NCBI RefSeq assembly: GCF_000381965.1
Contig: NZ_KB908459.1
Location: 124,001 to 188,000 of the forward strand
Source of the DNA: Oceanimonas smirnovii ATCC BAA-899
GTDB taxonomy: Bacteria > Pseudomonadota > Gammaproteobacteria > Enterobacterales > Aeromonadaceae
Direction of reading: 5' to 3'
DNA length: 64,000 nt
Made by a program: the position numbers and the translations under genes. Under the pieces are notes generated by a model, which had not been told where the DNA came from, searched no databases, and was given only the letters and a program-made list of their open reading frames with translations. Position 1 is the first letter of the stretch, and each line of letters opens with the position of its first letter. This document shows, piece after piece, positions 1-35,420 of the stretch.

Positions 1-70
1 TGCTTCTCCGGCACGCCATCCTTGGCGCGAAGGGCGCGGCGAAGCAGACACCCTTTGCCCTCCTCGGTAG
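1..70 (-). repeat. Dispersed intergenic repeat, diverged copy, truncated by window edge
   Basis: Aligned with the minus-strand copy near 9.87 kb, this stretch shares GGCA..GCCATCCTTGGC and CCCTTTGCCCTCCT (from about 49). The inner arms are CGCCA/TGGCG around TCCT, so the hairpin is kept although outer bases differ. It lies in inverted orientation to the copy at 114-229. The left end is outside the window. Confidence 0.5.
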
Positions 71-113
71 GCTCGGTGCTGCCAGTCAGCAAGCAGACAG
101 CGTCGATGTTGCT

Positions 114-229
114 CGAAGCAGCAGTGGGGATTGCCGGATTCGACCGTCAAATGCCAGGGATGGCATTTGCCGAGCGTCCCATGGATGGGCCTGAAGCGTG
201 TCGAAGGAGGTAACCCTGCTGCTGCTTCG
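114..229 (+). repeat. Dispersed intergenic hairpin repeat, copy with terminal inverted repeats
   Basis: The core hairpin is CAAATGCCA (148-156), GGGA loop, TGGCATTTG (161-169), followed by CCGAGCG and CTGAAGCGTGTCG, which are shared with copies near 9.87 and 35.36 kb. This copy is additionally bounded by an 11-bp inverted repeat, CGAAGCAGCAG (114-124) and CTGCTGCTTCG (219-229). No ORF of its own. It could be a REP/MITE-type element or a structured RNA element; which of these is not decidable here. Confidence 0.65.
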
Positions 230-285
230 TTTGGCTCGGCTTTTCAGACAACGAATGTTGCACGGCGCTTCAGAAAGACGAGAGC

Positions 286-963
286 TCACGCCTCCAGCAG
301 CCACTGCTGCAGCTGGCCAAGGGACGTCACTTCATGGTGGGGAGTAATGCCTGCAGGGGTGAGCTTGCCTTGCGTGTTGAGCCAGCAGGTGTGCAGGCCG
401 GCGTTGAGGCCGCCGAGAATATCGGAGTGGGGGTTGTCGCCCACCATCAGCACCCGGCTGCGATCGGGGTTACCCATAAGCTCCAGCGCATGCTCAAAAA
501 TGCCCGGATCGGGCTTGGCCACGCCCACCTCTTCCGATACTACCAGAGGTGAAAAAGCATGCTCCCAGCCGGCGCGCTGCAGCCTTGCCTGCTGCATGGA
601 GGCAAAACCGTTGGTAATAATGCCCAGCCGAGCTCTGCCTTCCAGCCCGGCAATCAGCTCACTGGCACCGGGCAGCAGGGTGCACACCTCCACCATGGTG
701 TTCATAAAGGTCTCGTTCAGGTGTTGTGTGGTCACCGCCAGCCGTTCGGCCCAGAGGGCAAAACGGCGATGGCGCAGCTCTTCGGCATCAATATCACCAT
801 TCTGATAAGCCACCCATAACGGCTGATTCTGAGCCTGATAGTGTGCAAAGGCACTTTCATCGAAGTTAACACCAAATTCGGCAAAAGTACGCTTAAGGCC
901 GCCAAATGCATCGAAATGAAACAAAGTGTCATCGGCGTCAAACAGTATCCAGTCGTAGCGCAT
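286..963 (-). CDS. yjjG: Pyrimidine 5'-nucleotidase YjjG (HAD family)
   Basis: A 225-aa cytosolic haloacid-dehalogenase phosphatase. Motif I is FDADDTLFHFD at residues 8-18, with the nucleophile and acid/base aspartates in DADDT. Motif II is IITNG near 115, and VGDNPHSDI near 175 is the Mg-binding motif IV. Length and N-terminus match YjjG, which dephosphorylates non-canonical and pyrimidine nucleoside monophosphates (house-cleaning; family knowledge). It is a single gene, and its 3' end faces a repeat element. The ATG start at 963 is the only sensible one. Family assignment is firm; substrate is inferred from the family. Confidence 0.9.
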   Translation of the reverse strand: MRYDWILFDADDTLFHFDAFGGLKRTFAEFGVNFDESAFAHYQAQNQPLWVAYQNGDIDAEELRHRRFALWAERLAVTTQHLNETFMNTMVEVCTLLPGASELIAGLEGRARLGIITNGFASMQQARLQRAGWEHAFSPLVVSEEVGVAKPDPGIFEHALELMGNPDRSRVLMVGDNPHSDILGGLNAGLHTCWLNTQGKLTPAGITPHHEVTSLGQLQQWLLEA

Positions 964-1088
964 CTAATCAAAACTCCAGAGCAAGTTGCCGGCAGAAGAC
1001 GCACAGTGTAGAAAGTCCGTCAGGTAAAACTCAATAGTTACAGCAAATTATGCTTAAATGCAGCTATTCGTTATAGCGAGGTAAAAGC

Positions 1089-1697
1089 ATGGAATTGTCG
1101 AGCTGGCTGGCCCTGGCGGCCATCTGCATCATGGGTGCCGTGAGTCCCGGCCCCAGCCTGGCGGTGGTGATGCGCAATACGGTGCGCGGCGGCCAGAGCC
1201 ACGGTGTGCTTACGGCGCTGGGCCATGGCTTGGGAGTGGGGCTTTATGCTTTGATCACCGCCCTGGGGCTGGCGCTGCTGATCACCCGCAATCCGCTGTT
1301 ATTCGATATTATTCGCTACGGTGGTGCCGCCTTTCTGGCCTGGCTTGGCATCAAGGCCTTGCTGGCGAAGCCACAGCCGGCAGTTACAGGGGAAAGTGGC
1401 CATGTCGTACGCGGCCGGCAGGGTGCTTTTGAGGGCTTTATGGTGGCCTTTCTTAACCCTCAGCTGGCCATTTTCTTTGTGGCCCTGTTCAGCCAGTTTG
1501 TGCGCGCCGATACCGGCTGGCAGCAGGGTGGCATCATGATGCTCACCGCCGGCGGCATTGATGCGCTCTGGTATGTGCTGGTGGCCTTGTTGCTGTCTCG
1601 CGGGCCTGTGCTGGGCTGGCTGCGTGAAAAGTCATTTATAATAGACAAGCTAAGCGGTCTGGTACTGCTGGCACTGGCGGTAAAAGTGGTGCTTTAG
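1089..1697 (+). CDS. LysE/RhtB family amino-acid exporter
   Basis: A 202-aa inner-membrane protein of about six hydrophobic segments. The N-terminal signature GAVSPGPSLAVVMRNTVRGG (about residues 16-35) is the RhtB/LysE hallmark PGP motif, followed by the conserved GHGLGVG. GAGG lies 8-10 bp before the ATG. Family members export homoserine, threonine, lysine or related compounds by proton antiport; the substrate here cannot be read from sequence. Monocistronic and divergent from yjjG, which starts 125 bp upstream on the other strand. Confidence 0.88.
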   Translation: MELSSWLALAAICIMGAVSPGPSLAVVMRNTVRGGQSHGVLTALGHGLGVGLYALITALGLALLITRNPLLFDIIRYGGAAFLAWLGIKALLAKPQPAVTGESGHVVRGRQGAFEGFMVAFLNPQLAIFFVALFSQFVRADTGWQQGGIMMLTAGGIDALWYVLVALLLSRGPVLGWLREKSFIIDKLSGLVLLALAVKVVL

Positions 1698-1823
1698 CGG
1701 GCTAAAAATAAATGCTCTTGTTGTGTGCTGGATCAAAGTTTGGTAGCCTTTCGCGGTCAAAAAAACAGCCTTTGTGCTCTGTGTCACTGATTTAATAACA
1801 GATAGAACCAACGGAAACAGCCC

Positions 1824-2237
1824 TTGAGCCCGATGTTGCACCTGCCCATAGCCGAGAGATGGCACGACCTGGCGTCGTTGTCGCGATCTGGTATGGACGG
1901 ATTTGGTGTACTTGGTGCCCTTATGATGCTGGAGCTGGTGGGTGACTGGCTGCTGAGCTGGACCGGCCTGTCTGCCGATGTGTTTGAATATCAGGCACAG
2001 CTGGCAGATCTGCAGCCCCTGGATGCACTCAAGGCACTGCTGTGCACTTCCTTGCTGGTCTTTGCGCCGCTGTTGCTGCAATGGCTGTTGCTGTTGCTGC
2101 ATTTATTGCTGCAAACCTTTAACTGGCCCCGGCTCACTCAACGCAAACCCTGCTTTTCTGCTTCAACCAAGCCGCGCCGTGCTCTGTTAAAAGCGCACAG
2201 TTGTCGCGCGCCACCTGTTTTCCCCTGCGGAGTCTGA
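1824..2237 (+). CDS. Small hypothetical membrane protein upstream of cyoA
   Basis: A 137-aa ORF with codon use like its neighbours throughout, and no family I recognise. Two hydrophobic stretches are visible: about residues 30-50 (VLGALMMLELVGDWLLSW) and a very Leu-rich one at about 73-98. The C-terminal 35 residues are basic with three Cys. The start is uncertain because no good Shine-Dalgarno precedes the ATG. It is co-oriented with cyoA, 132 bp upstream, so it might be a cyo-associated or independent protein. The gene is probably real; function unknown. Confidence 0.5.
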   Translation: MSPMLHLPIAERWHDLASLSRSGMDGFGVLGALMMLELVGDWLLSWTGLSADVFEYQAQLADLQPLDALKALLCTSLLVFAPLLLQWLLLLLHLLLQTFNWPRLTQRKPCFSASTKPRRALLKAHSCRAPPVFPCGV

Positions 2238-2246
2238 CAGTCTGAC

Positions 2247-2338
2247 GACGTAACCATTACGTCCGTTTTGTCTGCGTCATTCTTCGCCATCGGGTCATAC
2301 CCGAAAGTTCCAATATGGTCTTGCCGATAAGCGGCAAG
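2247..2338 (+). promoter_or_regulatory. Structured leader of the cyo operon: three consecutive hairpins
   Basis: Three perfect inverted repeats occur in 92 bp: GACGTAA/TTACGTC (2247-2253, 2257-2263, followed by CGTTTTG), CGGGT/ACCCG (2291-2295, 2299-2303) and CTTGCCG/CGGCAAG (2320-2326, 2332-2338). The first could be a weak terminator of the preceding gene. The third sits 31 bp before the cyoA start codon. A regulatory role in cyo mRNA is inference. Confidence 0.4.
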
Positions 2339-2369
2339 CTAGACCCATAGGAATAGGGGAAGGTTTCCT

Positions 2370-3278
2370 TTGTTTATTCGAAAGTTAGTTAACCTGCTGC
2401 TGGCAGGGGCGGCGTCCTTTGCGCTGTCCGGCTGCGAAGGCGGCGTGCTGGATCCCAAGGGCCAGATCGGTGCCGACGAAAAGTACCTGATCATGGTGGC
2501 TACCGGCCTGATGCTGCTGGTGGTGATTCCGGTGATCGTGATGACCTTGTTCTTTGCCTGGAAATACCGGGAAGGACGCAACGAGGCTTATGCTCCCAAA
2601 TGGTCTCACTCCACCAAAATTGAAACCGTGGTGTGGATAATTCCCGTCATTATTATCGTAATTCTGGGTGTTATTACCTGGCGCTCTACTCATGAGCTGG
2701 ACCCGTATAAAAAGCTGGACCATGAGAAAGAGCATCTGGTGGTGCAGGTGGTGTCACTGAACTGGAAGTGGCTGTTTATCTATCCGGAGCAGGGCATTGC
2801 CACCGTCAACGAGCTGGCGTTCCCGAAAGACGTGCCGGTGGAGTTCCGCATTACCTCCGACACCACCATGAATTCCTTCTTTATTCCGCAACTGGGTGGC
2901 CAGATCTACTCCATGGCGGGTATGGAAACCCAGCTGCACCTGATTGCCAACGAGGCCGGCCGCTATGACGGCATCTCCGCCAACTACAGCGGCGAAGGCT
3001 TTACCGGCATGAAGTTTGACGCCATTGCCACCGAAGACGAAGCCGACTTTGACGCCTGGGTGAATAAGGTGAAAACGAGCGAACACACCCTCGATATGGC
3101 GGCCTACCGGCAGCTGGCCGAACCCAGTGAACACCATCCGGTGGAATACTTTGGCGATGTCAGCCCGAATCTGTTCCACAACGTTGTGATGAAATTTATG
3201 CAGGACCATCACCCCATAAAGGGCGATGCGCATTCCCATCATCATTCAGCCAGCACCATGACGGAGGCTGAGAAATAA
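2370..3278 (+). CDS. cyoA: Cytochrome bo3 ubiquinol oxidase subunit II
   Basis: A 302-aa subunit II of the proton-pumping quinol oxidase, anchored in the inner membrane. The start is TTG at 2370, chosen because AGGGGAAGG lies 6-7 bp upstream and it opens directly on a lipoprotein signal (FALSGC, acylated Cys22). Two transmembrane helices (about residues 42-66 and 86-108) precede a periplasmic cupredoxin domain with [17 protein letters not shown]. The CuA Cys and His ligands of cytochrome c oxidases are absent, as expected for a quinol oxidase. The His-rich C-terminus (DAHSHHHS) is unusual. First gene of cyoABCDE, 1 bp before cyoB. Confidence 0.96.
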
Positions 3279-3279
3279 T

Positions 3280-5262
3280 ATGTCGTTACTAGGTAAACTC
3301 ACACTTGACGCCGTGCCCTACCATGAGCCCATTATCATGGTGACCCTGGGCGTGGTGGCCATTGCCGCCGTGGTGATCGCCTTCCTGATCACCCGTTATC
3401 AGAAATGGGGCCTGCTCTGGCGCGACTGGATCACGTCGGTGGACCACAAGCGACTGGGCATCATGTATATCGTGCTGGCCTTTGTCATGCTGATCCGCGG
3501 CTTTGCCGACGCCATCATGATGCGGGCCCAGCTGGCACTGTCTACCAATGGTGCCGACGGTTATCTGCCACCCGAGCACTACGACCAGATCTTCACCGCC
3601 CACGGTGTCATCATGATCATCTTTATGGCCATGCCCTTCATGATCGGCCTGATGAACATAGTGCTGCCGCTGCAGATCGGTGCCCGCGACGTGGCCTTCC
3701 CCTTTCTGAACAACCTCAGCTTCTGGCTGGCGGTTTCCGGTGCCGTGCTGGTGAATATCTCCCTCGGTCTGGGTGAGTTCGCCAAAACCGGCTGGGTGGC
3801 CTATCCGCCGCTGTCGGAGCTGGACTTCAGTCCGGGCGTGGGGGTCGACTACTACATCTGGGCCTTGCAGATATCGGGTATCGGTACCCTGCTCACCGGC
3901 GTTAACTTCCTGGTGACCGTGTTCAAAATGCGCACGCCGGGTATGAAGCTGATGCAGATGCCGATCTTCACCTGGACCTGCACCTGGGCCAACATTCTGA
4001 TCGTGGCGTCCTTCCCCATCCTGACTGCGGTGCTGGGCATGCTGACCCTGGATCGCTACCTGGACTTCCACTTCTTCACCAACGCCGCCGGCGGTAACGC
4101 CATGATGTACATCAACCTGTTCTGGGCCTGGGGTCATCCCGAGGTGTACATTCTGATTTTGCCGGCCTTTGGTATCTTCTCTGAAGTGATCTCCACCTTT
4201 ACCGGCAAGCGGCTGTTTGGCTACAACTCCATGGTCTATGCCAGCGGTGCCATTTCGGTGCTGGGCTTTATCGTGTGGCTGCACCACTTCTTCACCATGG
4301 GCTCCAGCGCCAACGTCAACGCCTTCTTTGGCGTCATGACCATGATCATCGCCGTGCCCACCGGGGTGAAGCTGTTCAACTGGCTGTTCACCATGTATCG
4401 CGGCCGCCTGCGCATTACTGTGCCGGTGCTGTGGACCTTAGGCTTTATGACCACCTTTACCATTGGTGGCATGACCGGCGTGCTGCTGGCGCTGCCCGGT
4501 GCCGACTTTGTGCTGCACAACAGCCTGTTCCTGATTGCCCACTTCCACAACACCATCATAGGTGGTGCCGTGTTCGGCTACCTGGCAGGCTTTGCCTTCT
4601 GGTTCCCGAAAGCCATGGGCTTTCATCTCGACGAAAAGCTGGGCCGAGTGTCCTTCTGGTGCTGGCAAATCGGCTTCTACGTGGCCTTTATGCCGCTGTA
4701 CGTGCTGGGCTTTCTGGGCATGACCCGTCGCCTCAACAGCACCGACAACCCGGCCTGGAACTTCTGGCTGTACCTGGCCGCCGTGGGCGCTGTCTTCATT
4801 CTGATCGGCATTCTGGTGCAGTTCTACCAGCTGTATACCGCCTTCCGTGATCGCAAAGCGAACAAGGATCTGACCGGCGACCCTTGGAACGGCCACACCC
4901 TGGAGTGGTCCACCAGCTCTCCGCCCCAGTTCTACAACTTCGCCAAACTGCCCCATGTGAGCGATATCGACGCCTTTACCGACATGAAGGAAAAGGGCAT
5001 CGCCTATCAGCCACAGAGCAGCTATCAGCCCATTCACATGCCCAAGAACACCGCCTGTGGTGTGCTGATTGCCGCCGCTGCCACTGCCGCCGGCTTTGGT
5101 GCCATCTGGCATATCTGGTGGATGGTGATTGCCGGTCTGGTGGCCAGCTTTGTTGTCTTCCTGTGCCGGGCCTATGACACCGACACCGACTATTACGTGC
5201 AGCCCGACGAAGTCGAGCGCATTGAGCAGGCACACCTGCGTAACGTGATGAAGGAGGCCTGA
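3280..5262 (+). CDS. cyoB: Cytochrome bo3 ubiquinol oxidase subunit I
   Basis: A 660-aa haem-copper oxidase catalytic subunit with about 15 transmembrane helices. It contains haem b, haem o and CuB and couples oxygen reduction by ubiquinol to proton pumping. Signatures include [17 protein letters not shown] near residue 50, [15 protein letters not shown] near 107 (low-spin haem His), [17 protein letters not shown] near 280 (CuB His and the cross-linked Tyr), HHFFT near 333 and the haem ligands in [10 protein letters not shown] near 419. Full length for CyoB. Its stop TGA overlaps the cyoC ATG by one base. Confidence 0.97.
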
Positions 5263-5882
5263 TGGAAGCCGTATCCGTTGATCTCAAACAGGTGCATGAG
5301 CACCACGAAGAAGAGCACCACGACACCGGGGGCAATACCCTGTTCGGTTTCTGGCTCTATCTGATGACCGACTGCCTGCTGTTCGCCTCGGTGTTCGCCA
5401 CCTATGCGGTGCTCTATATGAACACCGCCGGCGGTCCGGGTGGCCGTGAGCTGTTCGATCTCAAGTTCGTGGCGGTGGAAACCGCCGTACTGCTGGTTTC
5501 CAGCATTACCTACGGCTTTGCCATGCTCGCCGGCCACAACCACAAGCGGGGCCTGACCCTGCTGTGGCTGCTGGTGACCTTTGCGTTGGGTGCCACCTTT
5601 ATCGGTATGGAGCTCTATGAGTTCCATCACCTGATTGAGTCTGGCAATGGTCCGCAACGCAGCGCCTTTCTCACCTCCTTCTTCACTCTGGTGGGCATGC
5701 ACGGTCTGCATGTGACCGCCGGCCTGGTGTGGATGCTGGTGCTGATGGTGGAGCTGATGACGCGGGGCACAGGCCCCCGTACCCTGACCCGTCTGGGCTG
5801 CCTGAGCATGTTCTGGCACTTCCTCGACGTGGTGTGGATCTGTGTGTTTACCGTGGTGTATCTGATGGGGGCAATGGCATGA
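5262..5882 (+). CDS. cyoC: Cytochrome bo3 ubiquinol oxidase subunit III
   Basis: A 206-aa integral membrane subunit III with five predicted helices. Visible features are the [20 protein letters not shown] segment (about residues 29-48), a central ELYEFHHLI and [14 protein letters not shown] near 145-158. Subunit III stabilises subunit I and its proton uptake. Overlaps cyoB by 1 nt and cyoD by 4 nt (ATGA), so translational coupling is likely. Confidence 0.96.
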
Positions 5883-6199
5883 GTCACAACCATGACGCTG
5901 TGGATCACGGCAGTGTGAAATCCTATCTCACCGGCTTTGTGCTGTCGGTGATCCTGACCGCCATTCCGTTCTGGGCGGTGATGACCGGGCAGCTGAGCCC
6001 GGGGGCGACCCTGGGCACGGTTGTGTTGTTGGCCATTGTGCAAATAGTGGTGCACCTCAAGTACTTTCTGCACCTGAGCTTCAAGCCCGGCAGCCGGGAA
6101 AACACAGTGGCATTCCTGTTCTCCGCCCTCATTATCGTGATGGTGGTGGGCCTGTCGGTATGGATCATCATCAGCTCCAACGAAATGATGATGTATTAA
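5879..6199 (+). CDS. cyoD: Cytochrome bo3 ubiquinol oxidase subunit IV
   Basis: The 106-aa small subunit IV has three transmembrane helices (about residues 18-38, 46-66, 78-99). The N-terminal [11 protein letters not shown] and the [10 protein letters not shown] segment are typical of CyoD, which helps assemble the CuB centre. The start at 5879 is chosen because it gives the ATGA overlap with the cyoC stop and the family's usual length; an upstream in-frame extension reads through cyoC in the wrong frame and is spurious. Confidence 0.94.
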
Positions 6200-6278
6200 G
6201 ACGGTGTTCCGGCCCGGGCAACCGGGCCGGATACAGGCATAAACACGCGAACAAGGGGTTCATCCCAAGGGGCATTTT

Positions 6279-7166
6279 ATGATTCGGCCTTATCTCAAGG
6301 TCACCAAGCCGGGCATCATTATGGGCAACCTGATCTCGGTGGCCGGCGGCTTCTTTATGGCCGCCCGCGGCGATATCGACTGGTCGCTGATGTGGGCTAC
6401 CGTTATCGGGCTGTCGCTGGTGGTGGCCTCCGGCTGTGCCGTGAACAACTGCATCGACCGGGATATCGACGCCCGCATGCGCCGCACTCGCAACCGGGTG
6501 ACCGTGACCGGTGAGCTGCCGGTGCGCACCGCGCTGGTTTACGGGCTGGTGCTGGGGGTGCTCGGCTTTGGCCTGCTGGCGCACTATACCAATGCCGTGG
6601 CAACTGGCTTTGCCGCCTTTGGCTACGGGGTGTACGTGGGCTTTTACAGCCTGTGGCTGAAGCGCGCCTCGGTTTACGGCACCCTGGTGGGCAGCCTGTC
6701 CGGCGCGGTACCGCCGGTGGTGGGCTACTGCGCCGTTGCCGGCCAGTTTGATGCCGGTGCCGCCATTTTGCTGCTGATGTTCAGCTTGTGGCAGATGCCC
6801 CATTCCTACGCCATTGCCATTTTCCGCTATGAGGATTATGCGGCGGCGAATATTCCGGTGCTGCCGGTGGCGAAGGGAATGGCCAGGGCCAAACGGCAGA
6901 TAGTGCTTTATATTGCGCTGTTCTGTGTGGTGACCGCCCTGCTGCCGCTCAGCGGTTATACCGGCCTCACCTTTATGACGGTGGCCTGTGCCACCAGTCT
7001 GTGGTGGCTGGTGATGGCCTTTAACGGTTATCGCCGGGGGGCCGAGGAGCTGGGCTGGGCCCGCCGTGTGTTTGTGCTGTCCATCATTACCATCACCGCC
7101 ATCAGCGTGACCATGGCGCTCGACTTTCGGGTTGCGCCCGACGCCTGGCTGGCGATGAATTTTTAA
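6279..7166 (+). CDS. cyoE: Protoheme IX farnesyltransferase (haem O synthase), cyo operon copy
   Basis: A 295-aa UbiA-superfamily membrane prenyltransferase that attaches farnesyl to haem b to make haem O for the bo3 oxidase. Motifs: first Asp-rich motif [18 protein letters not shown] (about residues 60-77), YTLWLKR-like YSLWLKRAS near 127, and PPVVGYCA. It follows cyoD by 79 bp and closes the operon before a terminator. A second homologue of nearly the same length lies at 42.8 kb in the aa3 oxidase cluster. Confidence 0.95.
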
Positions 7167-7190
7167 GCTTTTACCGGTTCTCTCCCATTT

Positions 7191-7232
7191 GGCCGGAGTA
7201 AGCAGCGTTACTCCGGTCCTTCTTTTGTTCTT
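7191..7232 (+). terminator. Rho-independent terminator of the cyo operon
   Basis: Stem CCGGAGTAA (7193-7201), loop GCAGCG, TTACTCCGG (7208-7216), extendable by two pairs, then the T-rich run TCCTTCTTTTGTTCTTG. It lies 25 bp after the cyoE stop. Confidence 0.8.
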
Positions 7233-7307
7233 GTCTCTCTTTCTGCTCAAGACATCTGGCTGCTGATACACTCTGGCAATGGTATTGTGTTGCACAGGTG
7301 AATTTGA

Positions 7308-8042
7308 ATGCTGAGACCCCGCACCACACCGTCCCGTCTGTTGCATCAGCATCAGCCGCTGTCCGGTGACGATATTGGTGTTCTGTGCTGGAACGCCCAG
7401 AAACTGACCCAGGATGCCCGTTTTCATCAAAGCATTACCGATCTGACGTTACTTTACCCGACCAGCTTACTATTGCTGCAAGAGGCTCGACTGGCACCCT
7501 TGGGGGAAAGCTGGCTGGAAAGCTGGTCCTGGGCTGCCGCTCCCAATATGCAGACCCGCAAGCAGATGTTTGGTGTGCTTACCGCCGGACGCTGTGCCTT
7601 TGAGGATATACAGCCTTTGCTGACTCAAAGCCGGGAGCTGCGCTTTGCCACTCACAAAAGTTTGATCCTCACCCGTCATCCACTGCCTGAGGATGAAACC
7701 CTGCTGGTGGTCAACATGCATGCGATTAACTTTGTTCATGCGGGGCTGTTTCTTAAAGAAATGGAGCAGGTGCGTATTGAGCTGCTGCACCATACCGGAC
7801 CACTGATTGTAGCCGGCGACTTTAATGCATGGAGTCGGCAGCGGCGCTTGTATTTGCGCCGTTTTTGCCGGGCGACGGGGTTACGTCAGGCAGTAATGGA
7901 CAATGCCCATTATGTTAAGACGTATCTGCACCAACCGCTGGATTTTATCTTTTATCGGGATCTTAAACTGCGATCGGCGACAGCTATCGATATGCCAACC
8001 GTATCGGATCATAATCCTATTTATGCGCGATTTTTGCTTTAA
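7308..8042 (+). CDS. Endonuclease/exonuclease/phosphatase (EEP) family protein
   Basis: A 244-aa protein with the EEP (DNase I-like) fold. Visible are the N-terminal VLCWNAQK with the metal-binding Asn near residue 28, LLLQEARL with catalytic Glu near 60, VVNMHAINF near 130, the AGDFNAWS motif near 170 and the C-terminal SDHNPIYARF with catalytic His. It resembles the YafD subgroup, for which the substrate is not settled. No signal peptide is evident. Monocistronic, after the cyo terminator, and followed by a 387-bp gap. Confidence 0.85.
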   Translation: MLRPRTTPSRLLHQHQPLSGDDIGVLCWNAQKLTQDARFHQSITDLTLLYPTSLLLLQEARLAPLGESWLESWSWAAAPNMQTRKQMFGVLTAGRCAFEDIQPLLTQSRELRFATHKSLILTRHPLPEDETLLVVNMHAINFVHAGLFLKEMEQVRIELLHHTGPLIVAGDFNAWSRQRRLYLRRFCRATGLRQAVMDNAHYVKTYLHQPLDFIFYRDLKLRSATAIDMPTVSDHNPIYARFLL

Positions 8043-8429
8043 TGTCGCAATTTGACGACAAAATACATGATTTTGATGAAGAATTGCCAGTAAATTGTTA
8101 GTTAAAAAAGTAACTTTTTTTGCATTGAATAATTCTGTGTCAGAATCTGTCTCAGAATAATCCACTTTTTTTGTCTGGCAGGTCAGGTTGTTTCTGCGGA
8201 ATACAGTAACACTCATAAAAGTACTGTTTTTCTGTGTGACTAATGTCGCAAAAAAGCATTGATTTACATTTTGTATACAATTTTATTGTGTTTTGTATCC
8301 ATTTTAGGCGGGTGTAGTATTTATTTTGTTCCCGGGCAGGAAGCAGATTGCTTTTGTTACAGGAATAAATTTCGCAGTGGTCACCCAAGCGTGAGCCCGC
8401 ATATAAAAGTAAATAAAAAGGAATATAAA
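8043..8429 (+). promoter_or_regulatory. AT-rich upstream region of the small secreted-protein gene
   Basis: This 387-bp gap is markedly more AT-rich than its surroundings and I find no ORF in it. It holds the imperfect palindrome AAAAAAGT-A-ACTTTTTT at about 8104-8120, the perfect palindrome TTGTATACAA at 8271-8280, and a repeated TTTTGTAT near 8270 and 8293. A weak sigma-70-like pair, TTGTAT with TAGTAT 16 bp on, lies near 8294-8321. It probably carries the promoter and a long 5' leader. Confidence 0.4.
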
Positions 8430-8726: not shown

Positions 8727-8753
8727 TAAAGACCGCCACTGAGACGGTCCTGG

Positions 8754-8779
8754 GGGTGCTGTGTTCAGCACCCTTTTTT
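8754..8779 (+). terminator. Rho-independent terminator after small secreted-protein gene
   Basis: Stem GGGTGCTG (8754-8761), loop TGTT, CAGCACCC (8766-8773), T6. Canonical form, lying between the secreted-protein gene and the porin gene. Confidence 0.9.
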
Positions 8780-8801
8780 ATTGGTTTTTTCGGTAATAAG
8801 T

Positions 8802-9803: not shown

Positions 9804-9830
9804 TCCAGAGCGCAAGTCGGCCAAACGGCC

Positions 9831-9924
9831 AACTTCACGACACGCTTCAAGTACTTCCATGTAATGCTCGGCAAATGCCATCCTTGGCATTTGATCGGTC
9901 GTGAAGCTGCTCCCTTTGCCCTCC
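9831..9924 (-). repeat. Dispersed intergenic hairpin repeat, copy with two-level stem
   Basis: On the minus strand this reads GGAGGGCAAAGGGAGCAG, then an outer stem CTTCACGAC/GTCGTGAAG (plus-strand 9898-9906 with 9833-9841) enclosing a perfect inner hairpin CAAATGCCA-AGGA-TGGCATTTG (9872-9893) and an AAGTACTT palindrome (9849-9856). It lies between a porin gene and the convergent yjfC, so it could also act as a bidirectional transcription-end structure. Confidence 0.75.
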
Positions 9925-9946
9925 TTTCGAATATTGGGAGAGCGAA

Positions 9947-11730: not shown

Positions 11731-11739
11731 ATTGCCTCC

Positions 11740-25384: not shown

Positions 25385-25449
25385 AAATAATAATGGCGGA
25401 AGTTAGGTATGAAGTTTGTACTTCCGCCAAGTGCTGGTCGTAGTTTTTA

Positions 25450-26954: not shown

Positions 26955-27196
26955 CTGAAGTTAATGTGCTGAAAATGCGGATTGGGCCTGGTGGCGCTCA
27001 TGCTGGCCAGGCCCGACAGCGGCAGCAGGCACACCTGCGTGCCTGTGTTCAGCTTCAGGCATTCCTCTTTGTGTTCATTGCGGCTGGTGTCCAGTGCTAT
27101 GCCGGTAATTTGTTCGCCTGTGGTCAGTATCAGCCTGATTTCATAACGATACATACAGGCAATCTCCAGATAATCATGTTGATCGCAGTTCATCAT
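26951..27196 (-). CDS. rof: Rho-binding antiterminator (Rof/YaeO family)
   Basis: An 81-aa small protein. Start MMNCDQHDYLEIACMYRYEIRLILTTGE: the NCD(X)nYLEIAC pattern with the conserved Cys, followed by a Rof-type five-strand barrel, identify it. Rof binds the primary RNA-binding site of Rho and inhibits termination (family knowledge). Start 27196 (ATG, with AGGAA 10 bp upstream) chosen over 27247 by family length. Divergent from the liv substrate-binding protein, from which the start is 143 bp away. Confidence 0.78.
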   Translation of the reverse strand: MMNCDQHDYLEIACMYRYEIRLILTTGEQITGIALDTSRNEHKEECLKLNTGTQVCLLPLSGLASMSATRPNPHFQHINFS

Positions 27197-27338
27197 GGCA
27201 GCGTTTTCCTGTGGTAGTGGGCGGGGGTTTGGTCCCATTCGAAGCATTTTCCTCTTGTGCTAATTTTGTACAAGGGTTAGAACTGTGGAAGACGGCCGGA
27301 GCCGTTCCGGCTGCCCTGTTCGAATAGAGGATGTTCGT

Positions 27339-28454
27339 ATGGTGACAAGGAATAAAAAGGCGGTCGCACTGGCAGTGTTTGCGGCCCTGGGTTATGGCGC
27401 TGCCTTTGCTGCCAGCGCCGAGACCATTAAAATTGCCATTGCCGGCCCCATTACCGGTCCGGTGGCCCAGTATGGTGATATGCAGTTTACCGGCGGCCGC
27501 ATGGCGGTGGAGCTTATCAACAAATCGGGCAAGCTGGGCGAGCACACCCTGGAAGCGGTGGAGTTCGACGACGCCTGTGATCCCAAGCAGGCGGTGGCGG
27601 TAGCCAACCGCATTGTCAACGACGGTATTCAGTTTGTGGCCGGCCATCTGTGCTCCGACAGCACCCTGCCGGCGTCGGATGTGTATGACGACGAAGGCAT
27701 TCTGATGATTACGCCGGCGGCCACCAGCCCCACCATTACCGAGCGTGATCTTGAGTTTGTGATGCGCACCATAGGCCTCGACAGCGATCAGGGCCCCACA
27801 GCCGCACGTCATATCGTAGACAAGGTAAAACCCGAGCGCATCGCCATTATTCACGACAAGAAACAATACGGTGAAGGTCTGGCCTCCAGTGTGCGCGATG
27901 CCCTGAAGGAAGCCGGTGCCAATGTGGTGGCCTATGAGGGCATTACCTCCGGCGATAAAGACTTCTCGGCGCTGATTGCCAAACTGCAGCGAGACAAGGT
28001 GGACTTTGTCTATTACGGCGGTTACCACCCCGAGCTGGGGCTGATTTTGCGCCAGTCTGCTGAAAAAGGCTTCAACGCCCGCTTTATGGGTCCGGAAGGA
28101 GTCGGTCATAAAGATATTACCTCCATTGCCGGTGATGCCTCGGAAGGCCTGCTGGTGACCCTGCCCAAAAAATATGACCTCGAGCCGGCCAACGCCGACA
28201 TAGTGGCCGCCATTCAGGCCAAAGGTGAAGATCCCACCGGCCCCTTTGTGTGGACCACCTACGCCGCCATTGAGGCCTTTGCCGAGGGCATAAAACGGGC
28301 CGGTACCGATCCGGAAGCCGTGGCCACGGCGCTGCGCGCCGAGCCGGTAGAAACCGTGATGGGGCCGCTGTCCTGGGACGACAAGGGCGATCTCAAGGGC
28401 TTTGAGTTCGGCGTGTTCGAGTGGCACAAAGACGGCTCTTCCACTCAGCTTTAA
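27339..28454 (+). CDS. livK: Branched-chain amino-acid ABC transporter substrate-binding protein (LivJ/LivK)
   Basis: A 371-aa periplasmic binding protein. Signal peptide ends [18 protein letters not shown]; the mature N-terminus with [14 protein letters not shown] and Cys pair DDACDPK..GHLCSD is the LIV-binding hallmark (disulfide). ATG 27339 with AGAGGA 8 bp upstream is preferred to an in-frame ATG at 27285. First of livKHMGF, supplying leucine/isoleucine/valine or a related hydrophobic amino acid. Binding specificity inferred from family. A copy of the gene name livK versus livJ cannot be decided from sequence alone. Confidence 0.9.
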
Positions 28455-28541
28455 TCATAGTAAGACATTTCATCGTCAACGGGCGGAGCCTGCTCCGCCT
28501 GCATTGACGGCGCTCATCGTGCTACGACAAGGAAAGGTTGT

Positions 28542-29465
28542 ATGTCCGAGCCCCTTCTTTATTTTATTCAGCAGCTGCTTAATGGTCTGACCATCGGCAG
28601 CACCTACGCCCTGATCGCCATCGGCTACACCATGGTGTATGGCATTATCGGCATGATTAACTTCGCCCACGGCGAGGTTTACATGATTGGGGCCTACGCC
28701 GCCTTTATGGTGATGACGGCCCTGGCCATGTTGGGCATAGACAGCACAGTGCTGCTGCTGTGTGCCGCCTTTCTGGTGAGCATTATCATTACCAGCGTCT
28801 ATGGTTATTCCATCGAGCGGGTGGCCTACCGGCCGCTGCGCCACAGCAAACGGCTGATTGCCCTTATCTCGGCCATCGGCATGTCCATTTTTCTGCAGAA
28901 CATGATGCGTCTGGCCCAGGGCTCCCGGGATGTGGCCATTCCGCCGCTGTTGCCGGGTGGCTGGAGCTTTGGCGGAGAGGGCTTTCAGGCCAGTCTGTCT
29001 TATATGCAGCTGATCATTTTTGTGGTCACCTTTATTGCCATGACCTTGCTGTCGCTGTTTATTTCCCGCTCGCGCATGGGCCGGGCCTGCCGGGCCTGCG
29101 CCGAAGATCTGAAAATGGCCAACCTGCTGGGCATTAACAGCAACAGCATTATCGCGCTCACTTTTGTGATTGGTGCCGCGCTGGCGGCGGTGGCCGGTGT
29201 GTTGCTGGGCTCCTATTACGGCGTCATCAACCCCTACATCGGCTTTATTGCCGGGCTCAAGGCCTTTACCGCCGCCGTGCTCGGTGGCATTGGCAGCATT
29301 CCCGGTGCCGTGATTGGCGGCCTGCTGCTGGGCGTGACCGAAGCCATGACCGGCGCTTATTTCAGTACCGAATATAAGGACGTGGTGTCCTTTGGCCTGC
29401 TGATTTTTGTGCTGCTGTTTATGCCTACCGGCATTCTGGGCAAACCGGAGGTAGAAAAGGTATGA
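28542..29465 (+). CDS. livH: Branched-chain amino-acid ABC transporter permease LivH
   Basis: A 307-aa inner-membrane permease of about eight helices, starting [52 protein letters not shown], which is near identical in pattern to LivH. The conserved cytoplasmic loop [28 protein letters not shown] (about 182-209) carries the EAA-like contact to the ATPases. 87 bp after livK and overlapping livM by 4 nt (ATGA). Confidence 0.94.
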
Positions 29466-30703
29466 GCCGACTTAAACCTGCTTTTATTGCCGCGGGTCTG
29501 TTTCTGCTGCTGGCGGGCTGGCTGCTTGGCTTTCGGCTGGAAACCGAGGGCACGCAACTGATAGTGGCCAACCGGCTGGATGCCAGCTGGCAGTGGCTGG
29601 CGCTGGGGGCCGGGCTGGTGTTTGTGGCCCAGTTGTTTGCCGAGCAATGGCGCAAGCCTTTTCGCTATCTGGCGGATCGCAAGGGCAGCTTTGCGCTGCC
29701 GGCCCCGGAAGAGCAGCCCTGGCTGTATCGCATTGTGACCGTGCTGGTGCTGGGCGCCCTGCTGGTGTGGCCTTTTATGGGCTCCCGCGGAGCCGTGGAT
29801 CTGGCCACCCTCACACTGATTTATGTGATGCTGGGGCTGGGGCTGAACGTGGTGGTGGGGCTGGCGGGCCTGCTCGACCTGGGTTACGTCGCCTTTTACG
29901 CGGTGGGGGCCTACAGCTATGCGCTGCTGAACGCCTACTTCGGGCTGGATTTCTGGACCTGTCTGCTGCTGGGCGGTGCTCTGGCGGCGCTGGCGGGCTT
30001 TTTACTGGGCTTTCCGGTGCTGCGGTTGCGAGGGGATTATCTGGCCATCGTCACCCTGGGGTTTGGCGAGATTATTCGCATTCTGCTCAATAACATGACA
30101 GAGATTACCGGCGGCCCCAATGGCATTGCCGGTATTCCCAAACCCACTTTGTTCGGGCTGGAGTTCGAGCGCCGGGGCGATAACACCTTTCACGAGTTTT
30201 TCGGCATTGCCTATAACTCGGGCTACAAGGTGATTTTTCTTTATCTGCTGGCACTGGTGCTGGTGGTATTGACCATCTTTATTATCAACCGGCTGCTGCG
30301 CATGCCGCTCGGCCGGGCCTGGGAGGCGCTGCGGGAAGACGAAATCGCCTGCCGCTCCCTGGGGCTGAACCCGACGCTGATCAAGCTCAGCGCCTTTACC
30401 ATAGGAGCCGCTTTTGCCGGCTTTGCGGGCTGCTTTTTTGCCGCCCGGCAGGGCTTTATCAGCCCGGAGTCATTCGTGTTTATCGAGTCGGCCATTATTC
30501 TTGCCATCGTGGTGCTGGGGGGCATGGGCTCACAAATTGGCGTGGTGCTGGCGGCCATTATCATGACCATATTGCCCGAGCTGACCCGGGAATTTAATGA
30601 ATATCGCATGCTGTTGTTTGGCCTGCTGATGGTGCTGATGATGATCTGGCGGCCGCAAGGCCTGCTGCCCATGCATCGCCCTCATATGGAGCTGAAATCA
30701 TGA
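29462..30703 (+). CDS. livM: Branched-chain amino-acid ABC transporter permease LivM
   Basis: A 413-aa permease with about ten helices. The N-terminus is the extended LivM type, then [45 protein letters not shown] (about 115-159) and [29 protein letters not shown] (about 280-308), the ATPase-coupling loop. Heterodimer partner of LivH. Overlaps livG by 4 nt. Confidence 0.94.
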
Positions 30704-31464
30704 GTGAACTGCTGAATGTAGCCGGCCTCACCATGCGCTTTGGCGGCCTGGTGGCGGTAGACGGGGTGGCGCTGGCCATGCAGGAGCGGCAAATCGTGTC
30801 CATTATCGGCCCCAACGGGGCCGGCAAAACCACCGTCTTCAATTGCTTATCGGGGTTTTACCGGCCCAGTGGCGGCAGTGTGAACTTTCGCGGTCAGGCC
30901 ATTGCCGGCCTGCCCGGCCATAAAATTGCCCGTTTGGGCATGGTGCGCACCTTTCAGCATGTACGCCTGTTTAAGGAAATGACGGTACTGGAAAACCTGC
31001 TGGTGGCCCAGCATGCCCACCTTAATACGCACTTTCTTGCGGGCTTGCTGAAAACCCCGGCCTTTCGCCGGGCCGAGCGGGAAGGGCTGGAGCGGGCTCA
31101 TTACTGGCTGGAAAAAGTGAATCTGACCGAATTTGCCAATCGCGCTGCCGGCAACCTGGCCTATGGTCAGCAGCGCCGGCTGGAAATTGCCCGCTGCATG
31201 GCGGCACGGCCGGCCCTGCTGATGCTGGACGAACCGGCGGCGGGGCTGAACCCCTTTGAAACTCAGGAGCTGAACCGGCTTATTCAGGATCTGCGCACCA
31301 ATGAAGGCGTGAGCGTGTTGCTGATAGAGCACGACATGAAACTGGTGATGGATATCTCCGACCATATCTATGTGGTGAATCAGGGCCGGCCGCTGGCCGA
31401 CGGCAACCCGGAAGCGGTGCGCAATCATCCTGATGTGATCAAGGCCTATCTGGGAGAAACCTGA
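30700..31464 (+). CDS. livG: Branched-chain amino-acid ABC transporter ATP-binding protein LivG
   Basis: A 254-aa ABC ATPase. Walker [10 protein letters not shown] (about 37-45), signature-type [16 protein letters not shown] (about 151-166), Walker [14 protein letters not shown] (about 170-182) and the H-loop LIEHDM. The LivG-specific [17 protein letters not shown] is present. Overlaps livF by 1 nt. Confidence 0.95.
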
Positions 31465-32168
31465 TGCTGCATGTTGATAATATTTGCGCCCACTACGGCA
31501 AGATTCAGGCCCTGGAAGACGTGACAGTGCATATTGAACAGGGCGAAATCGTGACCCTTATCGGAGCCAACGGGGCGGGCAAAACCACCCTGATGATGAG
31601 CATTTGTGGTGATCCCAAGCCCAGCAAGGGCAGGGTGATGTATGAGCAGCAGGACTTAACCGGCCTCGACACCGCCGCCATTATGCGCCGGGATATTGCC
31701 ATCGTGCCGGAAGGGCGGCGTATTTTTGCCCGGCTGACGGTGGAAGAAAATCTGCATATGGGCGGTTTTTTTGTAGATAAGCGCGAGCATGCCGGCCTGA
31801 TGGCCGAGGTGTTTGCCATGTTTCCGCGGCTCAAGGAGCGCCGGCAGCAGCGGGCCGGCACCATGTCGGGCGGGGAGCAGCAGATGCTGGCCATTGGCCG
31901 GGCGCTGATGAGCAAGCCCAGGTTGCTGCTGCTGGATGAGCCGTCGCTGGGACTGGCCCCCATTATTATTAATCAGATTTTTGACACCATCGCTCAGTTG
32001 CGGGATGAAAAGGGCATGACCATTTTTCTGGTGGAGCAGAACGCCAATCAGGCGCTGAAGCTGGCGGATCGGGGCTATGTGCTGGAAAACGGTCGTGTGG
32101 TGCTGGCTGACACCGGCACTGCGCTGTTGGCCAACGAGCGGGTACGTAACGCCTATCTGGGCGGCTGA
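31464..32168 (+). CDS. livF: Branched-chain amino-acid ABC transporter ATP-binding protein LivF
   Basis: A 234-aa ABC ATPase: Walker A GANGAGKTTLMMSICG (about 33-48), signature MSGGEQQMLAIGRALMSKP (about 133-151), Walker B LLLLDEPSLGLAP and H-loop LVEQNANQAL. The LivF mark VPEGRRIFARLTVEENL is clear. Last gene of the liv operon; glpE follows 45 bp later with its own GAGGAGG Shine-Dalgarno, so it may be read from the same message. Confidence 0.95.
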   Translation: MLHVDNICAHYGKIQALEDVTVHIEQGEIVTLIGANGAGKTTLMMSICGDPKPSKGRVMYEQQDLTGLDTAAIMRRDIAIVPEGRRIFARLTVEENLHMGGFFVDKREHAGLMAEVFAMFPRLKERRQQRAGTMSGGEQQMLAIGRALMSKPRLLLLDEPSLGLAPIIINQIFDTIAQLRDEKGMTIFLVEQNANQALKLADRGYVLENGRVVLADTGTALLANERVRNAYLGG

Positions 32169-32213
32169 GGCCGAATTGGGTACACTGGCCGTCGTATTCT
32201 TGAGGAGGAATTT

Positions 32214-32534
32214 ATGGAACAGTTTGCCCACATCTCGGTGGATGAAGCGCACACCATGCTGAGCGAAGGCCGGGCCCGGCTGGTGGATATTCGTGATCCC
32301 CAGTCGTTTGCTCTGGCCCATGCCGAGGGTGCTTTTCACCTGACCAACGACAGCCTGGTGAGCTTTACCAACGAGGTAGATTACGAGACCCCGGTGATAG
32401 TGATGTGCTATCACGGCATCAGCAGCCAGGGGGCTGCTCAGTACCTTATTAATCAGGGCTTTGAAGAAGTGTATAGCCTGGATGGCGGCTTTGAAGCCTG
32501 GCGGCGCAGTCAGGCCGTGGTTGAAGCCTCGTGA
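32214..32534 (+). CDS. glpE: Thiosulfate sulfurtransferase GlpE (rhodanese)
   Basis: A 106-aa single-domain rhodanese. [21 protein letters not shown] near residue 23 and the active-site loop [13 protein letters not shown] (Cys65 is the persulfide carrier) are canonical; [16 protein letters not shown] closes it. It transfers sulfane sulfur from thiosulfate to cyanide or thioredoxin. GAGGAGG is 4 bp before the ATG. It overlaps glpG by 4 nt, as in many gammaproteobacteria, though no glp regulon gene is near here. Confidence 0.93.
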
Positions 32535-33376
32535 AAGCGCTGCTGGTGCTGGATGATCCGCGCCGGGCGCAGGCCTTTGTGGATTATCTGGGCGAAGCCG
32601 GCCTGCATTGTGAGCTGACCCAGGACGACAGCGGCAATGTCCATATCTGGCTGGTGGATGAAACCCGCTATGAAGAGGCGCACCGGGAAGTAAAACGCTT
32701 TCTGACCGAGCCGCTGCATCCGCGCTATCAGGAAGCATCCTGGAAGCGGGGAGACAGCCAGGTGCACTTTGCCGATGGCCCGCAGCGGGGTCTGCTCGGT
32801 GATGTGTTGCGCCAGACCGGACCGGTTAATTTGCTGGTATTACTGGCCTGCCTGGCCATTTATGGCCTGAGCTGGCTGGGTTTGCCCATGTTTGGCGTGC
32901 TGTCTTTTCCCGCTCAGCTGAGTGACCTGCTCGGAGCCCAGTTCTGGCGCGGCTTTACGCCGGCGCTGATGCACTTTTCCCTGATGCATCTGGTGTTTAA
33001 CCTGTTCTGGTGGTGGTATCTGGGCGGCATGGTGGAACGCCGGCTGGGCAGTGGCAAGCTGCTTACTCTGCTGCTGGTGGCAGCCGTATTGCCCAATGTG
33101 CTGCAGTTCTGGGAAAGCGGCCCACGCTTTGGCGGCCTGTCGGGAGTGGTATACGCCCTGCTGGCCTATGTCTGGCTCAGTGGCCGGCTTAACCCTGCCA
33201 GAGGCATTGGCCTGCCCGATGGCATGGCGGTGTTTATGGTTGTCTGGCTGGTGCTGGGCTTTGCCGATATGCTCGGCACCCCGGTGGCCAATATGGCCCA
33301 CCTGGGCGGTGCCGTGATTGGCCTGCTGCAGGCCTGGCTGGATAACAGACGCGGCCTTACTGGTAGAGAAAGGTAG
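32531..33376 (+). CDS. glpG: Rhomboid intramembrane serine protease GlpG
   Basis: A 281-aa inner-membrane protease. Cytosolic N-domain (1-85), then six helices. The catalytic dyad is readable: Ser204 in [10 protein letters not shown] and His257 in [11 protein letters not shown], with the oxyanion His-Asn in [16 protein letters not shown]. It cleaves single-pass membrane substrates in the helix. Its 3' end overlaps the convergent FliL-like gene by 20 bp. Confidence 0.95.
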
Positions 33377-33758
33377 TAAACAGCACTCGCCGCACCGGGG
33401 TCTCGCCGGTTTCTTTCAGCAGCAGTTCATTCAGCCGTTGCCGGCCTTCACTGGCTAGCTCGGTGCGGGCCGGCAGGGAGCGTATTTCCTGCCGGTTTTT
33501 CTCTGCCAGCAGATCATTGAGGGCATCCCGCAGCAGCGGCATATTATTCTCCACCAGCGGCAGCTGCTCCGGCCGCTCCAGCATCAAATCCACTGCCACT
33601 CTCACATAGCCCAGGTTTTGCTCGGAGTTCTGGTAGTTGGTAATAATGTCCGGCGTCATGGTGTAATATATTGGCCCGGCGGGCTCCGCCGGTTGTTCCT
33701 GTGCACTGAGGGTGGCCGAGGCGGCCAGCAGCAAGCAAAAGGCAGCAAACCGAAACAT
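33357..33758 (-). CDS. FliL-like envelope protein encoded by the glpG locus
   Basis: A 133-aa protein with signal peptide MFRFAAFCLLLAASATLSA and a FliL-type domain: IYYTMTPDIITNYQNSEQNLGYVRVAVDLMLE, then RDALNDLLAEKNRQEIRSLPAR and [23 protein letters not shown]. Unlike true FliL there is no N-terminal transmembrane anchor beyond the signal, and no flagellar gene is near; related FliL-like ORFs sit next to glpG in several marine gammaproteobacteria (family knowledge). Role unproven. Ends 20 bp inside the 3' end of glpG on the opposite strand. Confidence 0.82.
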   Translation of the reverse strand: MFRFAAFCLLLAASATLSAQEQPAEPAGPIYYTMTPDIITNYQNSEQNLGYVRVAVDLMLERPEQLPLVENNMPLLRDALNDLLAEKNRQEIRSLPARTELASEGRQRLNELLLKETGETPVRRVLFTTFLYQ

Positions 33759-33849
33759 ATGAGTCTCCGATAAGGAATCGAGCGGGCATTGTTTAAACTT
33801 TTGCCGGTGCGGTCAAGTTAAACGGCCAGGCAGGACCCAATGAGTTTTT

Positions 33850-34425
33850 ATGTCTTTGTTATTCCAAGAAACAAACACGACGTCCAGCATAGACAGTGAC
33901 TGGCACTGGGGCCAGCTGCCACCGGCGTCTCCGGTGCTGCAAAGCTGGCTGCATGAGCCGGGCTCGCTGACCCGAAGGCTAAGACAACATTGCCAGCAGT
34001 TTCACGTCAAGGTGTTGGCAGATGGCGTATTAAGACCACTGATGCCGGCGCAGGCCGAATTGCTGCAGGCCGAACAGGGCTACTGCCGGGAAGTGCTGCT
34101 GTGCTGCGATAATATTCCCTGGGTGTATGCTACTTCGCTGTATTCTCCGGCCACTCAGGCGGCGCTGCCGGCCTTGTCCGGTCTGGGCAGCAAGGCACTG
34201 GGCGAGCTGATGTTTGAAGCGCCGGATCTGACCCGCACGCCTTTTGAACTGACCGGCCTGACCCCAACCCAGTATCAGCAGCTGGCTGCACATGCGGGGC
34301 TGGCCGCCACCGAGCCGGCCACCATGCCCTGGGCCCGTCGCTCCGCCCTCAGCACAGGCCAGGCCAGCGTGCTGGTAACCGAACTGTTTTTGCCGAATTC
34401 GGCCCCTTATCAGGATTTAGTATGA
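33850..34425 (+). CDS. ubiC: Chorismate pyruvate-lyase UbiC
   Basis: A 191-aa enzyme that removes pyruvate from chorismate to give 4-hydroxybenzoate, first step of ubiquinone synthesis. Visible: [13 protein letters not shown] near residue 36 (Arg of the chorismate pocket), [23 protein letters not shown] near 78 and [13 protein letters not shown] near 118, ending with the WARRS..VTELFLP segment. The usual length is about 165-190. Overlaps ubiA by 4 nt (ATGA), the typical ubiCA pair. Confidence 0.92.
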
Positions 34426-35294
34426 CCACCCTGACGTCTTCTTCCCGCCCGCGCTGGCGCGCCTATATGGCGCTGGCCCGTCTCGACAAGCCCATCGGCA
34501 CCCTGCTGCTGCTGTGGCCCACTCTGTGGGCGCTGTGGATAGCCGCCGAAGGCATGCCCTCACTCTGGCTGCTGGTAGTGTTTGTGGCAGGCGTGTTTTC
34601 CATGCGCTCTGCCGGCTGTGTGATCAACGACTATGCCGACCGGCATATCGACGGCCATGTAAAACGCACTCATGCCCGGCCGCTGCCTTCGGGAGAGCTG
34701 ACCGAGCGCCAGGCCTTGAGCTTTTTTGCTCTGCTGGTGGGCATTTCCTTTGTGCTGGTGCTCACCACCAACCTGTTTACCATAGGGCTGGCCTTTGCAG
34801 GCTTGTTCTGGGCGGCGCTCTATCCCTTTATGAAGCGCTACACCCATCTGCCCCAGCTGTTTCTGGGCATTGCTTTTTCCTGGGCCATTCCCATGGCCTT
34901 TACCGCCGCCAGCAATGAGCTGCCCGCCGGGCTCTGGTTGCTGTTTGCCGCCAACCTCACCTGGACCATTGCCTACGACACCATGTATGCCATGGTAGAC
35001 AGAGACGACGACCTCAAGATTGGCGTCAAATCCACCGCCATTCTGTTTGGCCGGCACGACAAACTCATGGTGGGTCTGCTGCAGCTGGCCACCCTTCTGC
35101 TGCTGGTAGCTGCCGGCCGGACTTTTGAACTGGGCGCGGCCTTTTACTGGGGCTTGCTGGTGGCCGCCGGCCTGTTTGTGTATCAGCAACGGCTTATCCG
35201 CGACCGGGAGCGCATGCCCTGCTTTCGAGCCTTTCTTAACAACAACCACGCCGGCATGGCCATCTTCGCCGGCCTGGTACTGGCACTGTGGTAA
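34422..35294 (+). CDS. ubiA: 4-hydroxybenzoate polyprenyltransferase UbiA
   Basis: A 290-aa membrane prenyltransferase that joins the polyprenyl chain to 4-hydroxybenzoate. First Asp-rich motif [26 protein letters not shown] (about 66-91, NDxxDxxxD), second motif [21 protein letters not shown] (about 187-207), [20 protein letters not shown] near 23. Nine helices. A dispersed repeat copy follows, then lexA. Confidence 0.95.
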
Positions 35295-35319
35295 CCAGGC
35301 GGATAGCCAAGGCTGAACA

Positions 35320-35420
35320 GGGAGGATAAAGGGAGCGGCTTCACGACCGATCAAATACCAAGGATGGTATTTGCCGAGCGTTACAGGGAGGTACCTGAAG
35401 CGTGTCGGGAAGTTGCCTCT
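35320..35420 (+). repeat. Dispersed intergenic hairpin repeat, copy with compensatory stem change
   Basis: Inner hairpin CAAATACCA-AGGA-TGGTATTTG (35352-35373). Compared with the other copies both arms changed together (GC to AT pair). The outer stem is CTTCACGAC (35339-35347) with GTCGGGAAG (35404-35412, one mismatch) and the palindrome is AGGTACCT (35389-35396). Preceded by GGAGGATAAAGGGAG, also shared. Lies between ubiA and the lexA promoter. Confidence 0.75.

Follow-up and report, generated by a model that had tools for sequence, protein, structure and literature searches.

A dispersed intergenic repeat in a 64,000-nucleotide stretch of Oceanimonas smirnovii ATCC BAA-899 (contig NZ_KB908459.1, positions 124,001 to 188,000 of the forward strand; hereafter the window) is a real, structured and mobile palindrome, a variant of the YPAL/RU-2 kind of Yersinia. 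YPAL/RU-2 is already known, and the elements described here are subtypes of the Oceanimonas/Oceanisphaera/Zobellella clade. Their most interesting property is a paired loop module that resembles binding sites of the global regulator CsrA and is kept while the stems around it are replaced. The sequences suggest, with about an even chance in our judgment, that these are mobile palindromes of the YPAL/RU-2 kind whose two loops serve as putative CsrA docking sites.

The repeat had been described in a first-pass annotation as four copies of a hairpin with an AGGA-type loop. It was confirmed where it had been placed, both by a core pattern (at up to three mismatches, three places in the window and none in 100 shuffles) and by R1, a covariance model trained on copies that include the three intact window copies. 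The count of four needed revision: three copies are intact (110-116 nt each), and the one placed at 1-70 is a damaged copy of another subtype (C) at 1-64 on the minus strand, with its second hairpin gone. The hairpin-1 loop reads GGGA in the copy at 114-229 and AGGA in the other three. The copies and their hairpins (hairpin 1 placed by model alignment) are as follows:

1-64, minus strand: partial C-type partner, head to head with the A-type copy at 114-229, without hairpin 2 and extending beyond the window start (R1 11.2 bits, cut off at the edge)
114-229, plus strand: A-type element, outer stem CGAAGCAGCAG...CTGCTGCTTCG enclosing a three-way junction and two hairpins (R1 90.8 bits at 141-203)
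148-169, plus strand: hairpin 1 of the A-type copy, loop GGGA, with the ANGGA frame including the closing A-U
178-189, plus strand: hairpin 2 of the A-type copy, CCC-ATGGAT-GGG, loop A at 181
9816-9927, minus strand: B-type element, outer stem GGAGG...GGGAG, CTTCACGAC/GTCGTGAAG, two hairpins and CCGAC at the end (R1 84.7 bits at 9838-9901)
9872-9893, minus strand: hairpin 1 of the 9.8-kb copy, loop AGGA
9852-9863, minus strand: hairpin 2 of the 9.8-kb copy, TAC-ATGGAA-GTA, loop A at 9860
35320-35429, plus strand: B-type element (R1 80.6 bits at 35344-35407)
35352-35373, plus strand: hairpin 1 of the 35.3-kb copy, CAAATACCA-AGGA-TGGTATTTG
35382-35393, plus strand: hairpin 2 of the 35.3-kb copy, TAC-AGGGAG-GTA, loop A at 35385

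A whole-genome search for the rarity of the repeat revealed that it is not rare: the 3.28-Mb genome (G000) holds 40 BLAST matches and 53 R1 matches of at least 70 bits, plus weaker ones. From the BLAST set of 40, 39 copies entered the alignment, the truncated L033 having been dropped from the core set. Another 14 R1 matches of at least 70 bits, absent from the BLAST list, provided context for the counts and do not enter the loop tables. A and B are the main subtypes, with a common core and different outer stems. The A type (27 of the 40 BLAST copies) carries CGAAGCAGCAG...CTGCTGCTTCG; the B type (11 BLAST copies plus one truncated) carries GGAGG and the CTTCACGAC/GTCGTGAAG stem, which had been proposed earlier and is confirmed here; L036 is a chimera of a B outer stem and an A inner part. 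The third subtype, C, lies on the opposite strand, head to head with A copies. Such C/A partners were recognised by a simple pattern for 15 of the 53 copies, with their facing 5′ ends lying roughly 45-55 nt apart across a spacer that contains shared motifs, and such pairs recur in relatives. A flank motif, GCAGACAACGCCGATGTTGC, recurs 5′ of many A-type copies (e.g., at 93-113 of the window); it resembles the RU-2 end and may mark the true element border. The flank motif CAGACAACG had one exact match in the window and at least one match in 28 of 100 shuffles.

With genes called by a custom hexamer gene model, none of the 53 strong copies overlapped a gene, in agreement with the earlier description of the repeat as intergenic and adjoining gene ends: 23 lay between convergent genes, 4 between divergent genes, and 12 sense and 14 antisense between tandem genes. 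Of the 47 copies of named relatives, none of them in a gene, 17 were convergent and 3 divergent, 11 were sense and 10 antisense between tandem genes, and 6 at locus edges stayed unclassed; the relatives' background gaps of at least 100 nt numbered 11 convergent, 38 divergent and 53 tandem. The element therefore follows genes without favouring either direction.

The element folds into an outer stem, an inner stem, a three-way junction and hairpins 1 and 2, and its paired positions covary over many copies of the A, B and distant sets, as had been proposed from the few copies of the window. In the A type (n = 27), 96.4% of cells were paired and 19 of 41 pairs were changed on both sides; none of 500 shuffles reached any of five measures, and slid versions paired at most 41.6%. 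The corresponding values for the B type (n = 12, chimera L036 included) were 94.6% and 16 of 42, with four measures reached by none of 500 shuffles and the count of further pair types reached by 62 of 500. In the distant set (85 rows found with R1 in other genera, 72 after identical rows were collapsed), 95.1% of cells were paired and 17 of 20 pairs were changed on both sides; this alignment was fitted to the model, and its count of further pair types was not above shuffles (355 of 500). A custom mutual-information test, which ignores phylogeny, ranked two hairpin-2 pairs first in both the A and B sets; for the 12 B copies the chance expectation fell below 0.05 for the best pair only, and in the A set several unpaired columns also scored. 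Of the two covariation examples first put forward, CAAATGCCA/TGGCATTTG versus CAAATACCA/TGGTATTTG is a true double change, and AAGTACTT versus AGGTACCT is not a pair, one changed column being a free loop position and the other facing an invariant A. Another hairpin 2, favoured by RNAfold in some copies, was set aside because the pairs of the hairpin that presents the loop frame CANGGANG covary.

G-U cells exceeded A-C cells in the stems of all three sets (33 versus 10, 18 versus 5 and 45 versus 21; the cells do not count as independent events). This bias indicates constraint on a single folded strand and argues against a symmetrical cruciform, one of the two forms first suggested for the selected structure; it does not separate RNA from single-stranded DNA.

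A-N-GGA, with N variable, occurs in both hairpins of all 39 aligned copies of this genome, and the wider frame CANGGANG, the CsrA/RsmE pattern, fits both loops. Across these copies, C, A, GGA and G of hairpin 2 are invariant and both N positions vary; in hairpin 1, T occupies the second N in 35 of 39. The R1-found copies of other genera have ANGGA in 66 of 72 first hairpins and 67 of 72 second hairpins, and their first hairpins show 44 distinct aligned 5′ arm strings. Since R1 knows the loops, a model with masked loops (R2) was used to search 21 genomes preselected by R1 matches, and it returned 43 matches in 11 of the 21, all previously found with R1. Both loops were ANGGA in 22 of 30 distinct distant copies from 28 distant loci, and GGA, read from the printed list, was present in 29 of the 30 for each hairpin. 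The loop-blind alignment (80 rows, 67 after identical rows were collapsed) also includes 37 same-genus rows, seven of which lack paired ANGGA; these seven were read as opposite-strand shadows and lie outside the 30 distant rows. The two loop sites are 24-25 nt apart in all 39 copies of this genome and 22-26 nt apart in 74 of the 76 distant rows holding two sites.

According to a review (PMC7652899), the CsrA consensus from systematic evolution of ligands by exponential enrichment (SELEX) is RUACARGGAUGU, RsmE recognizes an ANGGAN hexaloop, the distance that CsrA bridges between sites runs from 10 to 63 nt (optimum above 18), and most CsrA SELEX ligands have four or fewer pairs. The present element has A-N-GGA in hairpin loops, with two sites inside the range of 10-63 nt, and the genome encodes one canonical CsrA of 63 residues. 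In the mechanism that we propose, non-autonomous mobile palindromes of the YPAL/RU-2 kind, here the subtypes of the Oceanimonas/Oceanisphaera/Zobellella clade, would fold on one strand from a long outer stem through the three-way junction into the two hairpins. If read-through, or inclusion in a 3′ untranslated region, yields a transcript of the folding strand, one CsrA dimer could clamp both loops. Individual copies might then act as scattered CsrA docking sites affecting the host mRNA, and together they may draw on the CsrA pool beside canonical CsrB.

Several results weigh against this mechanism. The main one is the lack of orientation bias (12 versus 14 in this genome, 11 versus 10 in relatives), unlike the prediction for a cis-acting RNA. 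The genomes searched with R2 had been preselected by the loop-aware R1, and 10 of the 21 gave no R2 match. Hairpin 1 is very stable, with 9 pairs compared with four or fewer in most SELEX ligands, and hairpins of at least three pairs with an ANGGAN loop are not in excess window-wide (22 versus 25.8 in shuffles). The genome already has one CsrB above the gathering score, and a missing CsrB was therefore rejected as the reason for the repeats. The Rfam family Ysr224 (RF02770), compared below, is modelled on the opposite strand and without GGA loops. In favour of the proposed mechanism count the covariation in three sets, the constancy and spacing of the loops, the canonical CsrA, the link to YPAL, the turnover at orthologous sites and a published proposal that the two-loop RNA TwoAYGGAY binds CsrA. 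CsrA docking is the best single reading, plausible at about even odds, with mobility as single-stranded DNA as its main rival.

Under that rival, which we consider somewhat unlikely, the fold and loops serve mobility as single-stranded DNA hairpins read by a transposase or recombinase, and the likeness to CsrA sites is accidental. The turnover at orthologous sites is in its favour as well. Among 21 genus mates compared at the 35.3-kb site (G009, one of 22 mates, had no flank match there in the loci examined), G010 has a different A-type copy, G002 has a B-type remnant without an R1 score and the other 19 have no R1 match in the gap; G011, one of these 19, has extra DNA between the flanks, and both flanks are nearly joined in G003, G004 and G006. 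In the orthologous copy of G010 (L225:2173-2284), the A-type hairpin 1 is interrupted by a small palindrome, a nested insertion, and the remnant of G002 (L223) has its 5′ GGGAGG joined to that of hairpin 2, the pattern that a deletion between short repeats would leave. At the 9.8-kb site, where 11 mates were compared (with a single flank aligned in several), the flanks are joined without an element in G010; G007, G009 and G019 carry copies of their own close by; and in the remaining seven R1 matched nothing in the loci examined. No clean target duplication was seen at the two sites inspected by eye. The repeat is multi-copy, intergenic, palindromic and mobile by comparison of filled and empty sites, the features by which YPAL is recognised.

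The tandem arrays and head-to-head pairs, as well as the lack of orientation bias to flanking genes, also suit a role in mobility. The strand bias fits single-stranded DNA too, in which G-T is likewise the better tolerated mismatch. Arrays were observed with five copies at a period of 168 nt, the length of RU-2 (G052:C2:216010-216742), with three copies at 194 nt (G396:C4:362561-363011; L170, L271) and with three at 140 nt (G098:C23:188010-188351). Against this explanation, no REP-type transposase or RAYT gene was found in the genome; the sole Y1 transposase match (L042, G000:C17:27158-27523) is of the IS200/IS605 type and adjoins a TnpB-like gene encoded on the other strand, and a RAYT-driven REP was rejected on this ground. 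Mobility also leaves unexplained that, in each of the two hairpins, the loop positions that vary and those that are fixed match those of the CsrA pattern.

The distribution of the element extends beyond the genus. In the relatives search R1 matched 35 of 61 genomes, among them all 23 genomes of the genus. Across the order, at an expectation value (E) up to 1e-5, it matched 66 of 394 genomes, spread over 17 of 114 sampled genera; the sister genus g4 had no R1 match in the 20 genomes listed. The exact core pattern was found in 44 stretches of a named genome collection; Oceanimonas, Oceanisphaera or Zobellella accounted for 43 of them and a gammaproteobacterial metagenome-assembled genome for the other. 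Phage records gave no match for the window copy or RU-2, plasmids none for the window copy or L145, and E. coli genomes none for L145. A degenerate copy (L288; 23.2 bits, found as a partial match of L151, the one plasmid match of that copy) lies at 1496-1547 of the Vibrio coralliilyticus plasmid pOCN014, past the end of a helicase gene on this mobilizable plasmid, which is a possible route of spread.

A further explanation, unlikely in our view, is a stable 3′-end RNA hairpin like REP/BIME, acting in exonuclease protection or termination, for which stem stability alone would matter on either strand. The position after genes on either strand and the convergent enrichment (23 versus 4, and 17 versus 3 in relatives, with a background of 11 versus 38) speak in its favour, and according to PMC2229807 YPAL may influence transcript stability; it leaves unexplained the constant loops on one strand and the bias of G-U over A-C. 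That the spacers of head-to-head C/A pairs hold promoters for independent small RNAs is very improbable: the spacer with its shared motifs would suit this reading, but the simple pattern recognised partners for 15 of 53 copies only, and no convincing -35/-10 pair was seen by eye, with no promoter scan run.

If the loops bind CsrA, supposedly inert repeats would provide a global regulator with binding sites that move, and the Csr targets of close relatives could differ by copy position alone. If CsrA is not involved, the question becomes what holds both loops constant while the stems of a mobile palindrome are replaced.

At the gathering score, Rfam gave no match at the repeats in the whole window, with neither Ysr224 nor TwoAYGGAY among the hits, and at E up to 5 it gave nothing at the element cores of 10 loci of this genome. 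The window matches above the cut-off were a cobalamin riboswitch (62531-62727, plus strand) and an L31 ribosomal protein leader (56853-56904, plus strand); no tRNA genes were found in the window.

The CsrA-sequestering small RNAs of the CsrB/RsmZ type likewise carry the CsrA motif in hairpin loops, whereas the present element has two sites per RNA rather than many, occurs in many dispersed copies and coexists with a separate CsrB. REP/BIME with RAYT are also intergenic, located after genes and arranged in head-to-head pairs (compare PMC3733652), but are 20-40 nt long; the present element has at least 110 nt and two inner hairpins, and no RAYT gene was seen. ERIC (RU-1, 127 bp) was rejected, with a best E of 0.65 over 19 nt, and matches to MIR477 and mir-616 were taken as chance matches of long stems. 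The Rfam family TwoAYGGAY (RF01731) has two hairpins with A-Y-GGA-Y loops and is proposed to bind CsrA (PMC4333381); it was matched below threshold only, at best with 32.2 versus 43 bits, by copies of one distant genome. This link is doubtful, as an unrelated microRNA family has a better E-value on the same stretch.

The nearest relative is YPAL/RU-2, and the earlier statement that no named family shares this consensus did not survive: the element has the fold and loops of this Yersinia family, a named match being the refuting outcome that the first-pass annotation had itself set. The 168-nt RU-2, called YPAL by others, is printed in PMC2759123. Its loops, GCC-AAGGAT-GGC and TAC-ATGGAT-GTA, lie 24 nt apart, and it aligns with the present element across the whole core. 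Both thus share the three-way fold and two A-N-GGA loops at that distance, whereas the A- and B-type outer stems are unrelated to RU-2 in sequence. YPAL is described as intergenic, multi-copy and mobile by empty sites (PMC2759123, PMC2229807, PMC2847712), with variable duplications (PMC2229807). Target duplications of 3-26 bp and co-transcription with the gene upstream are further criteria of the family. In BLAST, RU-2 clearly matched the C subtype of this genome (78-80% over 51 nt, E 6e-9) and a copy from a genome of family f19 (78% over 116 nt). Matches to the window B copies were weak (75% over 40 nt at E 0.006, and E 0.25) and that to the window A copy reached E 0.87, the window A and B copies being matched by fold only. 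The RU-2 query also matched 17 plasmid records, all from enterobacterial genera. On such YPAL-like plasmid copies, R1, built from this genome only, scored 46.9 (Klebsiella), 32.2 (Pantoea) and 19.5 bits (Enterobacter), and Ysr224 scored 72.4, 30.8 and 39.5 bits on their reverse strands (cut-off 70).

The Ysr224 consensus, read backwards, has the two hairpins; on the matching copies of this genome, the family scored 24.3 (L018) and 26.3 bits (L025), far under the cut-off of 70. Among the papers listed in literature searches, none tied YPAL or Ysr224 to CsrA or noted the fit of both loops to CANGGANG. We tentatively suggest, at less than even probability, that the present repeats and their relatives in 17 of 114 sampled genera of the order belong with YPAL, Ysr224 and perhaps TwoAYGGAY to one ancient superfamily of mobile palindromes with a paired CsrA-docking module on the folded strand, self-spreading sites that would wire genes into the Csr network or titrate it. 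CsrA binding by the loops would then explain the dispersed-repeat look of the small RNA family Ysr224 and join families that have been described separately.

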